Source of the DNA: Myxococcales bacterium
GTDB lineage: Bacteria > Myxococcota_A > Polyangia > Nannocystales > Nannocystaceae
Assembly: GCA_014240065.1 (NCBI GenBank)
Contig: JAAZXR010000011.1
Span: 1 to 64,000 of the forward strand
Direction: 5' to 3'
DNA: 64,000 nt
Of the stretch, positions 22,069-27,914 are shown piece by piece; the stretch's first letter is position 1, and each line of letters starts with the position of its first letter. The notes beneath the pieces were generated by a model that saw only the letters and a program-made list of their open reading frames with translations, was not told the origin of the DNA and ran no database searches. A program made the position numbers and the translations under genes.

Positions 22069-25050
22069 CTACCAGCTGACCAGGTCCTCGGGCTTGACCT
22101 CGATCACCTCACCGATCGCAGCGAGCGCCTCCAGGTCCACCGTCTCGCGATTGCCCAGCACCGTGATCACCGGCGCGGTGTCTCCCTTCACCACCGCGTC
22201 AGACCACGCCTGCAGCTCGTCCACGGACAGCGATTTTGTGCGCTCGCGTCGCGCCGGGCGGGGATCTCCAGACAGCCCAGCCCTCTCCCATGAGCTCACT
22301 TTTCGCGGAATCCGCCGTGGTGAGATTCGACCCGTGCGGAACTCCTCTTCCATCGCGGCCTTCGCCACCGACACCGTGTTCGTATCGAAGCGATGTTCGA
22401 GCAGCAATTCGAGCATCAAGGTGAGGGCGTCGACGGTCTTGTCGCCCTGGGTGCCGAGCGACCCGCCGAGGAACCACTCGTCGTCTGCATAGCTGCCCGT
22501 GCTCACGAAGGCGTAGGCGCTGTAGGCCAAGCCGCGAGCCTCACGCACCTCCTGAAAGATCAGGCCGCCCATCCCGCCTGAGAGGTAACTCGACCAGACC
22601 TCGGCTGACGCGCGCTCGACCTCTTCCCCAGGCGGCCGAGGCACGGTGATCGAGACGGAGGACTTCGCGACGTCCCGGTGCAGAAAGTAAATCGTCGGGC
22701 GCTCCACCCGTCGGTAGCGATTTGGCTCACGCCGTTCGGTCGCCCCAAGCCCCTCCGAGGTCAACAACAGCGGCTCGACCTCCGCCCGCGCGCGCGGTCC
22801 GAAGTAGCGGACCTCTCGCCGGTAGGAGAACAGCCCGCGGGAGAGCGCCTCCACGTCGCCGCGCGTGAGTTTCTTGAGGCCCACATTGCTCAATTGGTGG
22901 AGGAAGGCGCTCTCGCCACCCCTACGGCCGAAGGAAGTGAGCGCCCAACCGAGGAACCGTGGCGACTCGAGGTTGTCGTTCCTGATCCCGATCTTCGTGT
23001 TCTTCGCGTTCTCTAGCGCCTCGTCTTCGATCACAACCTGGCCGAGCCACTCTTGTACCAGCGCCAAGCCCTGCTCCATCTTGTCGTCGATTCCGCTCAC
23101 GCTGACCGTGGTCGCGTGGTCGCTACAAGAGACGGAGATATCCACGCCAATCTTCGAGAGCGTCTTTTTGATCGACTCGTTGCTCTTGGTGGCGGTCCCA
23201 GAGCGCTGCGCGAGATCCAACGCGAAACACAACCCCGGGCTCCTCCAGCTCCCCACGTCGAATCGATAGGACACAAGAAACAGCTTGTTGCGCTCGTTGT
23301 GCGCCGTGAGCAACACACCGCTCGGCGCCTCCGCCCGCTCGAACGCCTCACCTTCCACCAGCCACTTGGGCTCGATGGGGGTCGCCTCCATGCCGAGGAT
23401 CCGCTGCGAAAAGCCGCTCTTCCGCGAGGGGTCAAGCGCCACCGGCGAGATCGTCGGTTTCTCGATCTTGGGGAGCTCCGGGGACCCGGGGATGCGCTTG
23501 ACCGCCGCGTAGGCGTCACCGACATACTGACGAGCGACACGCAGCACATCCTCCCGCGTCACCGCTTGGAGCCGCGCCCTGGAAGCGACCATGTCCGGCC
23601 AATCCCATCCTTGGATGAACGCGTCGGTCATCTTGGAGACCCGCGCGCCGGGATACTCGAGCTCCAGCTGAAACTGTAGTTCATCGGCGAGCTTCACCGC
23701 CTCAAGATCGTCGTCGCTAAAAGACCCACGCTTGAGGTCGTCGATGACACCGAGCAACAGCGTCTCGAGCTCCTCGGGCGTTTGCCCCTCTTTCGCCGTC
23801 GCCGACAGCCGCCACCACCCCGCCTCTTTGACGAAGGTCGGGCTGGAGCCCGCGCGGGCCACCTTCTGCGTGGTGGTGAGCGCGATATTCAAGAGTCCAG
23901 AGGAACCATTGTCGACCAGCATATCGAGCACCTCTAGCGCAGCGCGGTCTTCATGTTTGGCGGGGACAGTCTGCCACGCGAGGACGATCGACGTCTCTCC
24001 CTCCGCTTCGATCACCCGCTCCACGCGCGACGACATGGGCGTCACTTCCGCCGGTGCGGCGGTGCCAAGTTTTCGGACCGGGAGTCTCCCAAAGCTCGCT
24101 TCAAGCACCGGAATCGCCGTCTCAGCGTCGATGTCGCCCGCCAGGACGATGGCCATATTGTTGGGGCCGTACCAGTCTTGAAAATAGTCGACCATGTCTT
24201 GATAGGCCGGCGTCTTGAGGTGCTCCACGAGACCGATCGTGGGCTGCGTCCCGTATGGATGGCCCGGGAACATCGATTTCATCATCGCCTCATTCACCCG
24301 CCGATACGGCGAATCGAGCGAGATGTTTTTCTCCTCGTAGACCGCCTCAAGCTCGGGATAAAACAGGCGAAACACGGGATCCGAGAACCGCTCAACCTCG
24401 ACCGCCGCCCACGCCTCCAGCCGGTTCGACGGGACGTCAGCGATGTACACAGTCTCGTCGAGCCAGGTGTACGCGTTGAGCCCGTCGATACCCATCTGGG
24501 CGTAGAGGCGGCTGAGTTCGTTTGGAATCGAGAACTTCGACGATTCCTGCGTCGCGCGATCGATCTTCGTGAGCGTCTCCTGTCGCGCCGCGTCATCTTC
24601 CGCCGCGCGGAGCTCCATGTACAGGCGCTCGATCTCCTCAATATGTGGGCGCTCCGCGGCCATATCTGTGGTCCCCAGCTCGTCGGTCCCCTTGAACAGC
24701 ATGTGCTCAAGGTAGTGAGCCAGACCGGTGGATGTGGACGGATCATTCCGGCTTCCGGTTCGCACCGGCAGGTACGCCGAGAACCGTGGCTTCTCCCGAT
24801 CGGTGCTGATGTAGACCGTCATGCCATTGGAGAGGCGATGAATCGTGACCGCCATGGGATCATCGGGGAGCGGCGCAGGGATCGTCTTGGGGAGGTTCGA
24901 GGCCTCGATGATCGCCGCGGCCGAGGCTGAGCCCGCGCCTGGCGCCGCCGTCGACCCGCTGGGGCTCGCGCACGCGGACGTCGCGAGCGCCGTCGCGAGA
25001 GAGATCGGCAATAGGAGCATTTTGCGTCGCGGGGATTGAAACCTGAACAT
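22069..25050 (-). CDS. M16 family zinc metallopeptidase, lipoprotein
   Basis: A 993-residue double-domain M16 (pitrilysin/insulinase-like) protease with a signal peptide and lipobox TSAC. The inverted zinc motif HYLEH (H-x2-E-H) is near residue 112 in AHYLEHMLFKGT, and the third ligand Glu is likely in ELEAVYEEKN about 115 residues later. A charged insertion follows the zinc site (PHIEEIERLYMELRAAEDD). The second half repeats the fold without the zinc motif, as in most M16 proteins. ATG at 25050 starts a clean signal peptide; a TTG-type extension to 25203 is unlikely. It lies 142 bases upstream of the CpoB-like gene on the same strand. The role is periplasmic or surface peptide degradation. 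Confidence 0.92.
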   Translation of the reverse strand: MFRFQSPRRKMLLLPISLATALATSACASPSGSTAAPGAGSASAAAIIEASNLPKTIPAPLPDDPMAVTIHRLSNGMTVYISTDREKPRFSAYLPVRTGSRNDPSTSTGLAHYLEHMLFKGTDELGTTDMAAERPHIEEIERLYMELRAAEDDAARQETLTKIDRATQESSKFSIPNELSRLYAQMGIDGLNAYTWLDETVYIADVPSNRLEAWAAVEVERFSDPVFRLFYPELEAVYEEKNISLDSPYRRVNEAMMKSMFPGHPYGTQPTIGLVEHLKTPAYQDMVDYFQDWYGPNNMAIVLAGDIDAETAIPVLEASFGRLPVRKLGTAAPAEVTPMSSRVERVIEAEGETSIVLAWQTVPAKHEDRAALEVLDMLVDNGSSGLLNIALTTTQKVARAGSSPTFVKEAGWWRLSATAKEGQTPEELETLLLGVIDDLKRGSFSDDDLEAVKLADELQFQLELEYPGARVSKMTDAFIQGWDWPDMVASRARLQAVTREDVLRVARQYVGDAYAAVKRIPGSPELPKIEKPTISPVALDPSRKSGFSQRILGMEATPIEPKWLVEGEAFERAEAPSGVLLTAHNERNKLFLVSYRFDVGSWRSPGLCFALDLAQRSGTATKSNESIKKTLSKIGVDISVSCSDHATTVSVSGIDDKMEQGLALVQEWLGQVVIEDEALENAKNTKIGIRNDNLESPRFLGWALTSFGRRGGESAFLHQLSNVGLKKLTRGDVEALSRGLFSYRREVRYFGPRARAEVEPLLLTSEGLGATERREPNRYRRVERPTIYFLHRDVAKSSVSITVPRPPGEEVERASAEVWSSYLSGGMGGLIFQEVREARGLAYSAYAFVSTGSYADDEWFLGGSLGTQGDKTVDALTLMLELLLEHRFDTNTVSVAKAAMEEEFRTGRISPRRIPRKVSSWERAGLSGDPRPARRERTKSLSVDELQAWSDAVVKGDTAPVITVLGNRETVDLEALAAIGEVIEVKPEDLVSW

Positions 25051-25154: not shown

Positions 25155-25646
25155 GTGCGCGAAAACTCGACCCCGGGCGACACCCGCTTAAAACTAGAGT
25201 CACGCGCGTTTTTTGGCGTCCTCGTGTTTGTGGCGGTCATCGCCGCCGGCATCGAGTGCGTCGAGCGGTGGCGATATGGCGGACAGTCGGCGTCTGTCGG
25301 GGAGTCCAGCCCGCCGCAGGGCACTCCATGCACCCCCCCGCCGTTCTCGTTGCCACCAGCGGCCCGGGCGTTCCGATCCCTGGCAGACACCGCCAGCGGC
25401 GCGTGCCTCCTGCGCTACGAGAGCGCCGCGCCCCCGACCGCCGAGGTCACGCGATTGCTCGAGCAGGCCAACGCGCCGGCGTGCGATCACCTCACCCAAT
25501 ACTGGAGGCTCGACACCGACTTTTGGTGCGCCCGCGACGACGGGGCGCGCGGCGGATGCCGCGGCAGCCTCTGCGTCTGGCGGGCCGCCGACGGCGACGC
25601 CTGGTTCGCTCGCTGGCAGATGATCCCGCCGACTTCTCCGCCGTGA
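25155..25646 (+). CDS. Small membrane-anchored hypothetical protein
   Basis: A 163-residue protein from a GTG start. One N-terminal transmembrane helix (FFGVLVFVAVIAAGIECVE) follows a short basic-acidic leader. The remainder is predicted outside the cytoplasm with six Cys (ACLLRYES, PACDHLTQYW, DFWCARDDGARGGCRGSLCV), suggesting disulfides. The stop ends one base before the stop of the convergent beta-propeller gene, a fit that supports it being real. I do not recognise the family. Confidence 0.6.
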   Translation: MRENSTPGDTRLKLESRAFFGVLVFVAVIAAGIECVERWRYGGQSASVGESSPPQGTPCTPPPFSLPPAARAFRSLADTASGACLLRYESAAPPTAEVTRLLEQANAPACDHLTQYWRLDTDFWCARDDGARGGCRGSLCVWRAADGDAWFARWQMIPPTSPP

Positions 25647-26801
25647 TTACTGCAGGCGCCACGCGCCCAGCGCGTAGGGAGCGAGCCCGGTAGATTCGAC
25701 CTCCGACAGCGCCTCGCCGCCCAACGAGAATCGACGCACGCCCGGATTCTTGACGCTGCGATCACCGAAAAACAGCTCGTCCTCATACAGCTCAAGGCTG
25801 CGCTCGGCGGACTGCAACCCCCCAACGAGGAGCTGTGGCGCCGCGTCACCATGCACCGCCCAAAGCTCCACCTCGCTGAAGTCAGCGGTGTAGATGGCGA
25901 CGACGGTCGTGGCCCCGTCCTCGGACACCACGAAGTCTTGGGGCTGCAAGTAGTTCATCTCCCCGCCCCCCGGGAAATACTCGGGGGGCACGTGCCAGTC
26001 CCACGTCGCCGCGTCGAGATCCACGTCCACGACCCCCTCACAGAGCACCAGCAGATGCCCGGGCTGGGTGGGATGCGCCCGATGTTCGCGGCTCCACGCG
26101 CACGGCAGCGGAATCCCCTGCACACCGGAGGTGCCCGGCTCGAGGTCGATGAGGGCCGGGTCCATCACGTCCACTTCGACGAGCTGATCAAATCCCACCG
26201 GGGTCCACCCGTCGAGCCGATTGACGGGGTGACTGAGCACCCACGCTCGACCCTCGTGGACGTAGGCAAACTCCGTCTCGGCGACCTCGTCTTCGTCCGC
26301 GAGCGTCGACATGTCCACGCTCGCGACGAGCGACGCCCCTGGCGCGCCAAGGAAGTCATGAATTTGCACCTCGGACGCCCCGTACAGGCTCACGACCGCG
26401 CGCCCCGTCGCTACGAACGCCAGGCCATGCGGATTTGTGGAGGTGGCCGTCGCGGAGACGATGGCGTGCTCCGCGACGAGCGCGAACCCGTCGTATGGAT
26501 CATAGACCGAGACGTAGTCGTGCATAAAGCGGTTGAGGACGTAGACGTACTCCCCGTCGGAGAACGGAATCGCGTCGGGGCTCGCGGAGGCGACGTCGCG
26601 GTATAGGGTGCCGGCCTCGAGGTCGTACACCGACAGCGCGCCGGTGGAGAAGTCCGTGGTCGTGATGAGCATGGCCGGCCCTTCGAGCCGCTCGGGCACC
26701 ACGGAGGGAGGTGTCCACGTCTCGCATCCACCGCCGAGCACCCCCAAGATCCCCGCGAAGGTTGTCGACGCACGCCTCCGCCATTTTAGACCCGTCACCA
26801 T
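25647..26801 (-). CDS. Beta-propeller-like surface lipoprotein under B12 control
   Basis: A 384-residue lipoprotein (lipobox LGGGC). The body repeats short beta-rich units such as GALSVYDLEAGTLYRDV, DYVSVYDPYDGFALVAEH, VVDVDLDAATWDWHV and FGDRSVKNPGVRRFSL, spaced like blades of a propeller. It is the second gene behind a cobalamin riboswitch, four bases after the first lipoprotein. In Bacteroidetes, BtuG is a surface beta-propeller lipoprotein that binds cobalamin very tightly, so a BtuG-like role is an attractive inference; no sequence signature proves it. The start ATG at 26801 gives a normal signal peptide. Confidence 0.75.
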   Translation of the reverse strand: MVTGLKWRRRASTTFAGILGVLGGGCETWTPPSVVPERLEGPAMLITTTDFSTGALSVYDLEAGTLYRDVASASPDAIPFSDGEYVYVLNRFMHDYVSVYDPYDGFALVAEHAIVSATATSTNPHGLAFVATGRAVVSLYGASEVQIHDFLGAPGASLVASVDMSTLADEDEVAETEFAYVHEGRAWVLSHPVNRLDGWTPVGFDQLVEVDVMDPALIDLEPGTSGVQGIPLPCAWSREHRAHPTQPGHLLVLCEGVVDVDLDAATWDWHVPPEYFPGGGEMNYLQPQDFVVSEDGATTVVAIYTADFSEVELWAVHGDAAPQLLVGGLQSAERSLELYEDELFFGDRSVKNPGVRRFSLGGEALSEVESTGLAPYALGAWRLQ

Positions 26802-26805
26802 GGGC

Positions 26806-27552
26806 TCACAGGTTCGGATTCACCACCGCGATCGCGTCGAGGTCAAAACCCCCCTTGCCACCCATGCCCGGGTCGCACCAGTCTCCGTCTCGCGCGCTCC
26901 AATAGCTCTCGCTCCGATCGATCAGCCGGACGAAGCGGATCCAGTCCACGCCGACGGCCTCCAGGTCGAATGTGTCCCCGCCAGCGCTGAGGGCGCCCCA
27001 GCCCTCGGTCCCCTCATCCCAGACAGCCTCCGTCGGCGTTCGCCCCGCGCACCCGTCGAGGTCGCCATCGGCCGCGCAGTCGAACTTCAGCCACTCGCAG
27101 CCGTCCGCGCTCACCCAGACCTCCGCGGGCTCCGGGAAATCGACGGAGAAGGGATTCTCGAACACGACGAAGTCCGGGCCGCTGTCGCTGTTGTACGCGC
27201 CGTCGAGACCGAGGTCGATGACAATGGAGCCGCCGCAACCAAGCGACACGACGTCGGTGGCACCACCCGGTGGTCCCGCGACCAAGCTGTGCACGTCGTC
27301 GTGGCCGTGGCCGCCGGCTTCGACGGTCGCCTCCGCGGGCGAGAAGTGGGCGGCGCAGCGACCATAGGTCTGCGCTTCCGCGATCTCCTCGTCTGTGCAC
27401 GGCTCGACACATCCGGTCCACGGCTCGATCGGCGGTGACTTCGAGGCCACAGCGTCGTCCCCCGAGTCGCACGCGGCGAGACAAACAACGGCGGCGAACG
27501 AAGCGGCGACGAGCGACCGGCAGGCGGGTGATACTGGAGTGAGTCTCAACAT
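26806..27552 (-). CDS. Cell-surface lipoprotein, first gene after the cobalamin riboswitch
   Basis: A 248-residue lipoprotein with lipobox CLAAC. The mature protein carries a His-rich patch (GGHGHDDVH) and a domain with VVSLGCGGSIVIDLG, GPDFVVFENPF and EVWVSADGCEWLKF, a pattern recurring in bacterial cell-surface proteins of unknown function. ATG at 27552, with AAAGG five bases ahead, is the start; the frame runs open further upstream only because it crosses the riboswitch. The ribosome-binding site lies in a hairpin at the end of the riboswitch leader, so translation is probably shut off when cobalamin is bound. Together with the downstream propeller protein it is a candidate corrinoid capture system. 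Confidence 0.8.
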   Translation of the reverse strand: MLRLTPVSPACRSLVAASFAAVVCLAACDSGDDAVASKSPPIEPWTGCVEPCTDEEIAEAQTYGRCAAHFSPAEATVEAGGHGHDDVHSLVAGPPGGATDVVSLGCGGSIVIDLGLDGAYNSDSGPDFVVFENPFSVDFPEPAEVWVSADGCEWLKFDCAADGDLDGCAGRTPTEAVWDEGTEGWGALSAGGDTFDLEAVGVDWIRFVRLIDRSESYWSARDGDWCDPGMGGKGGFDLDAIAVVNPNL

Positions 27553-27557
27553 GTTGA

Positions 27558-27577
27558 CCTTTCGCCTTGTGCGAAGG
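27558..27577 (-). promoter_or_regulatory. Hairpin hiding the ribosome-binding site (riboswitch expression platform)
   Basis: On the minus strand CCTTCGC pairs with GCGAAAGG (one bulged A) across a short loop. The 3' arm contains the AAAGG ribosome-binding site of the lipoprotein gene. Another strong hairpin, CTCGCC/GGCGAG with a GAGA loop, lies at 27625-27640 between it and the aptamer. The arrangement suggests translational control. Confidence 0.6.
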
Positions 27578-27639
27578 ACCGATCTACAATGAGCGGTCTT
27601 CACGTCCCCTCGAGGCTGTGGGGTCTCGCCTCTCGGCGA

Positions 27640-27810
27640 GCTCGACGGTAGGTTTTCGGGCTCACAAGCGCGGCCATCTGGCCTCCTAGGACTCGCGGCT
27701 TCCCAGCGATTGCCAGTGCCTTCGGTGCGAGTTTCGTTCTTGCTTACCGCTGCGGGGGCAGCCCCGGATTTGCACCGGATTCCCTCAGGGCGAGCCGTGA
27801 AGCGCGCGCC
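27640..27810 (-). ncRNA. Cobalamin (adenosylcobalamin) riboswitch
   Basis: On the minus strand the conserved core is present in order: GGAATCCGGTGCAAATCCGG, the B12-box-type GCTGCCCCCGCAGCGGTAA (27742-27762), then CACTGGC, GGGAAGCCGCGAGTC and GAGCCCGAAAACCTACC. This is the standard cobalamin aptamer consensus. It lies between the choice-of-anchor lipoprotein gene and the two-lipoprotein operon, 88 bases ahead of the first start codon. Bound cobalamin should lower expression, typical of B12 uptake genes. Confidence 0.95.
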
Positions 27811-27914
27811 GTCGATATTCGATGAGTACGTCGCGAGCGCGCGGTCGTCAACCCAGCCTCTCCTCACCCACCATGGCGCCCGCCTGGTCCCCGAGCGCAT
27901 CCAGCGCCCATCGC

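Follow-up and report, generated by a model that had tools for sequence, protein, structure and literature searches.

The closest described counterparts of the locus analysed here are the BtuG and BtuH lipoproteins of Bacteroides, both of which are measured B12 binders (PMC6143338, PMC8941943). BtuG has been studied in the context of gut B12 competition and was reported to be exclusive to Bacteroidetes (PMC6143338). In BtuH2, Asn399 and Phe401 contact the phosphate/nucleotide loop and the lower ligand of B12 (PMC8941943). BtuG1 of B. theta is a natural G–H fusion that includes a BtuH domain (PMC10404256). Another extracytoplasmic B12-binding protein, the β-jelly-roll BtuJ (DUF4465), is already known in Myxococcota. 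A full-text search of the open literature revealed no BtuG paper on Myxococcota except the work on DUF4465, a different fold. In the open literature searched, lipoprotein-mediated B12 capture of the BtuG/BtuH type has been described only from Bacteroidetes.

Within the window, the whole 64,000-nucleotide stretch of DNA analysed here, from a myxobacterium of the Nannocystaceae related to the predatory soil bacterium Nannocystis, cmscan identified a single Rfam match, a cobalamin (B12) riboswitch (RF00174) at positions 27630..27828 of the minus strand. The match covers the entire aptamer (model positions 1–189 of 189) and reaches 94.3 bits (gathering threshold 31.5; E = 3.5e-22), confirming the clear B12 riboswitch that the original prediction had placed upstream of a lipoprotein gene. 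Our own riboswitch model scores the same aptamer at 92.6 bits. The 4.7 Mb genome, which is 98% complete, contains two cobalamin riboswitches, including the one in the window. The leader between the aptamer and the first gene, gene A (27553..27629, minus strand), is presumed to be the expression platform on the basis of its sequence, fold and conservation with the sister genome G148. It comprises a GC-type hairpin (CUCGCC-GAGA-GGCGAG), a second hairpin (AAGACCG...CGGUCCUU) and a Shine–Dalgarno-like GAAAGG at 27563-27558 of the minus strand. The leader of the sister genome is nearly letter-identical, while the gene A protein there is just 76% identical. Thermodynamic folding of the leader yielded a z value of 0.51, which has no significance and is uninformative on whether the presumed platform would act transcriptionally or translationally.

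Gene A (26806..27552, minus strand) encodes a 248-aa lipoprotein, whose start at 27552 lies 77 nt past the aptamer and whose lipobox is clear (LAAC, C28). Pfam searches identified no family covering gene A or 40 relatives. Single-sequence searches against Pfam and PDB returned nothing useful and no similarity to BtuH; useful matches came from family profiles. A profile of 25 myxobacterial sequences, searched against 177,635 PDB sequences, produced exactly two matches, BtuG1 (8blw_B, E = 0.12) and BtuH2 (7biz, E = 0.23). After the profile was widened with relatives from a second phylum, these remained the sole PDB matches, with E-values of 1e-5 and 0.013, respectively. The AF2 model of gene A (pLDDT 79.5) also finds 7biz as its top Foldseek match (E = 5.5e-4, probability 1.00), with a partial fold overlap (TM 0.43), followed by CBM32/discoidin domains. 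Profile and fold comparisons thus both relate gene A to the C-terminal B12-binding domain of BtuH.

The PDFVVFENPF-type motif noted in the original prediction is real: GPDFVVFENPF (residues 125-135; 27148..27180, minus strand) is near-invariant in the family alignments. Its invariant N133-P-F135 aligns with N299-A-F301 of the 7biz chain. As this chain comprises 501 residues for a tagged 103-593 construct, we infer a numbering offset of 100, under which N133 and F135 would fit the B12-contacting Asn399 and Phe401 of BtuH2. These are the only BtuH contacts mapped in gene A, since the profile leaves the C-terminal half, with Tyr510, Trp511, Trp577, His476 and Gln333, unaligned. Like BtuH, gene A encodes a lipoprotein within B12 loci. 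A Pfam search detected no N-terminal PKD/Ig-like domains in the 248 residues, and the sequence is very divergent from BtuH; gene A is therefore classified as a BtuH-like domain rather than as BtuH. Sequence profiles and the model place it as a free-standing relative of the domain with which BtuH binds B12, and binding is predicted for it. The "extra partner" of the original prediction accordingly does not represent a novel kind of protein. The His patch (GGHGHDDVH) of that prediction lacks conservation: in the family alignment a single His column is common, with Q, N or E in its place in other members, and a His metal patch is rejected. An assignment to DUF4465/BtuJ was likewise rejected, as neither gene A nor 40 relatives match DUF4465.

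Gene B (25647..26801, minus strand) starts 4 nt past the gene A stop, forming a tight two-gene unit, and encodes a 384-aa protein. Both proteins had been proposed to be lipoproteins; the LAAC of gene A supports this assignment, while gene B has a signal peptide with an atypical and weak lipobox (GGGC, C26) and is a probable lipoprotein. Single-sequence Pfam and PDB searches identified no relative of gene B, and phmmer did not retrieve BtuG up to E 10. The AF2 model, built from 17 sequences, has a pLDDT of 89.2 and a pTM of 0.87, and folds into a β-propeller of about 27 strands. In the structural comparison with BtuG that had been suggested as a check, a Foldseek search of 350,542 PDB chains returned BtuG structures as all of the best 13 matches (E = 5e-13 to 4e-11), followed by an archaeal surface layer protein, XusB, NirF and BtuK1. 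The TM-scores are 0.56–0.64 for BtuG and up to 0.61 for unrelated propellers; since the YncE-type propeller is a broad fold and these scores are close, the fold of gene B alone is not decisive. In the first profile search against PDB, designed Pizza propellers ranked top, while a wider family profile retrieved BtuG1 (8blw_B, E = 8.5e-5) and further BtuG chains at about 3e-4 (8ptf, E = 2.8e-4) among other propellers.

Gene B shares with BtuG1–3 of Bacteroides the seven-bladed YncE-type propeller, to which BtuG is nearest, the presumed lipoprotein nature, riboswitch control and, in relatives, the link to btuB. It differs in its low identity (10–14% in Foldseek alignments), in the non-adjacent btuB, in lacking the Bacteroidetes export signal and in belonging to another phylum. 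Homology to B. theta BtuG at the BLAST level (E < 1e-10, the cut-off of Wexler et al.) was not detected by phmmer, and gene B is therefore named BtuG-like rather than BtuG. The evidence supports a BtuG-like propeller, with tight B12 binding and a lid role predicted for it. The central idea of the original prediction, a riboswitch-driven BtuG-like propeller with a partner in a myxobacterium, thus stands on the Rfam, AF2 and Foldseek results. Given the G–H fusion in BtuG1, genes A and B constitute the same pair encoded as two genes. Beyond the pair, a 163-aa open reading frame at 25155-25646 (plus strand) converges with gene B and occupies the same position in G148 (L035:1-477), and a predicted M16-type (HxxEH) zinc peptidase, recognized by eye from its HYLEH motif, lies at 22069-25036 (minus strand).

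Among 193 genomes from its class, 72 contain a gene A homologue, nearly always as a single copy. In a second phylum, accessed through a Kapaibacterium record, 26 of 198 genomes do so. We inspected 79 loci of gene A relatives, which are the best-scoring ones from named genomes and not a random sample. In 51 of them, a cobalamin riboswitch precedes the gene in the same orientation at a distance of no more than 8 kb, as counted with a model (R1) built partly from some of those same records. A TonB receptor is present in 33/79, a propeller in 28/79 and both in 23/79, and about a quarter (21/79) have none of the three. As a genome carries about 1–3 cobalamin riboswitches, the number of linked loci expected by chance is far below one. 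In Myxococcota and in some other phyla, the neighbours of gene A repeatedly include the riboswitch, a TonB receptor and a propeller. In another genome of Nannocystaceae (L202, G095:C72), a single run reads riboswitch-btuB-btuG-btuH-btuF-btuC-btuD, encoding in order the receptor, the propeller, the gene A homologue, a periplasmic binding protein, a FecCD permease and an ATPase. Seven loci, mostly from Corallococcus (L072, L084, L088, L102, L122, L126 and L127), carry the gene A family in duplicate, at a spacing of about 2–4 kb, with a separate riboswitch match upstream of each copy. Four Polyangium loci (L074, L077, L083 and L109) carry gene A homologues with no riboswitch, receptor or propeller nearby, and the domain may also serve purposes other than B12 uptake.

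The window contains no TonB receptor, consistent with the original remark that none lies alongside, yet this absence is local and not a property of the system. The genome has seven TonB plug-domain matches, six of them above the cut-off. For one receptor, on another contig (C169:124743-127220, plug match E = 1.1e-18), the best match in nine relatives is the receptor encoded in the riboswitch cluster. E. coli BtuB (E = 2e-14) and B. theta BtuB1 (E = 1e-11) are among the PDB chains that it matches. The plug domain and the orthology to the cluster receptor identify it as the BtuB orthologue. We looked for a riboswitch before this gene and found none. Because the receptor stands apart and lacks a riboswitch, the btu operon appears to be split in this lineage; gene B lies under the riboswitch here, while btuB adjoins its counterpart in relatives. 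The genome has one FecCD-type ABC importer, encoded on contig C158 with a binding protein and an ATPase, which likely carries B12. It also encodes a cobalamin-dependent MetH and other B12-binding domains. A GATase_3 protein is absent from the genome, hence also CobB/CbiA and CobQ/CbiP, which makes de novo B12 synthesis unlikely. With MetH present and CobB/CobQ absent, the organism probably scavenges B12. Published isolation media for myxobacteria include the vitamin (PMC12919014).

The second cobalamin riboswitch of the genome, also on C158, precedes a gene for a 164-aa lipoprotein (L033:9117-9611); riboswitch and gene together span L033:9117-9914, equivalent to G000:C158:106616-107413. The family of this lipoprotein has no Pfam match, and 15 of 16 members match the NCBIfam family LIC13354 (NF047669). 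Its relatives occur near gene A in 15 of the 79 loci, in most cases right between the riboswitch and gene A, a position taken in about a dozen relatives, sometimes by two or three tandem copies. The gene A family in turn resembles LIC_13355 of Leptospira: all 41 members of its alignment match NF033170 (best E = 4e-20), with P0001 at 16 bits, far under the curated cut-off of 120. The locus tags LIC_13354 and LIC_13355 are consecutive, and both genes are upregulated together in host-adapted Leptospira, 3.77- and 3.72-fold, respectively (PMC3953431). Published work treats LIC_13355 as an adhesin-like lipoprotein that binds laminin and plasminogen, and does not mention B12 (PMC11891782). As the two cobalamin riboswitches of Leptospira are located elsewhere (PMC3953431), a B12 role for these two proteins is just a lead.

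Considering these findings, we interpret the locus as a cobalamin-repressed operon for the capture of corrinoids at the outer membrane, in which genes A and B would feed BtuB and then the ABC importer, with a probability of roughly 0.78. The computed support for this reading comprises the riboswitch, gene order, homologies, folds, conserved linkage, the orthologous receptor and the absence of CobB/CobQ. In this mechanism, low intracellular B12 would lead the riboswitch to permit expression of both genes, whose products would be envelope lipoproteins, presumably exposed at the surface. Gene A may gather corrinoids through its N-x-F loop, and gene B would serve as a high-affinity lid that passes the ligand to the C169 receptor. 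TonB and the C158 FecCD importer would probably complete uptake across the inner membrane, and the imported B12 would serve MetH and other B12 enzymes.

An explanation that we consider unlikely, but the most serious of the rivals, is that genes A and B are regulated by B12 without binding it, playing a structural or assembly role at BtuB as does BtuL of B. theta. It draws on the observation that BtuL and BtuK2, which belong to such operons in B. theta, showed no cobalamin binding in an assay (PMC12751083), and on the mapping of only two BtuH contact residues in gene A. That contact pair is, however, invariant in the gene A family, and the nearest structural relatives of both proteins are measured binders. 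It is less probable still that the two proteins capture another ligand, such as haem, a xenosiderophore or a cobalt/nickel chelate, with the riboswitch governing a replacement for B12-dependent metabolism. The xenosiderophore propeller lipoprotein XusB does appear among the structural matches of gene B, and some gene A relatives lack a B12 context; yet BtuG structures outrank XusB, relatives pair with a BtuB-like receptor and no His metal site is conserved in gene A.

Propeller and jelly-roll/discoidin folds are common, as the CBM32/discoidin matches ranking after 7biz illustrate, and genes A and B could in principle be ordinary YncE-like and carbohydrate-binding-like surface lipoproteins that stand behind the riboswitch by chance. 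The linkage of riboswitch and gene A in 51/79 loci from several phyla, at so few riboswitches per genome, largely refutes this explanation, which we regard as highly improbable.

A capture operon of this kind also bears on how widely such systems are distributed. We tentatively consider, with the odds still leaning against it, that surface corrinoid capture by BtuG- and BtuH-like lipoproteins may be a multi-phylum module rather than a gut adaptation of Bacteroides, possibly including LIC_13355 and, as a third, previously unrecognised partner in corrinoid handling, the small LIC13354-like lipoprotein. Such a module would span Myxococcota, Binatia, CSSED10-310, Hydrogenedens and Kapaibacteria, and Leptospira by homology. 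The occurrence in Myxococcota of a G and H pair under a riboswitch, together with a BtuB orthologue, and the presence of related modules in further phyla suggest that lipoprotein-aided B12 capture is wider, and perhaps older, than described. These findings provide proteins ready for assay, suggest a likely function for a conserved lipoprotein family without a Pfam entry and point to a connection with two uncharacterised Leptospira proteins that can be tested.
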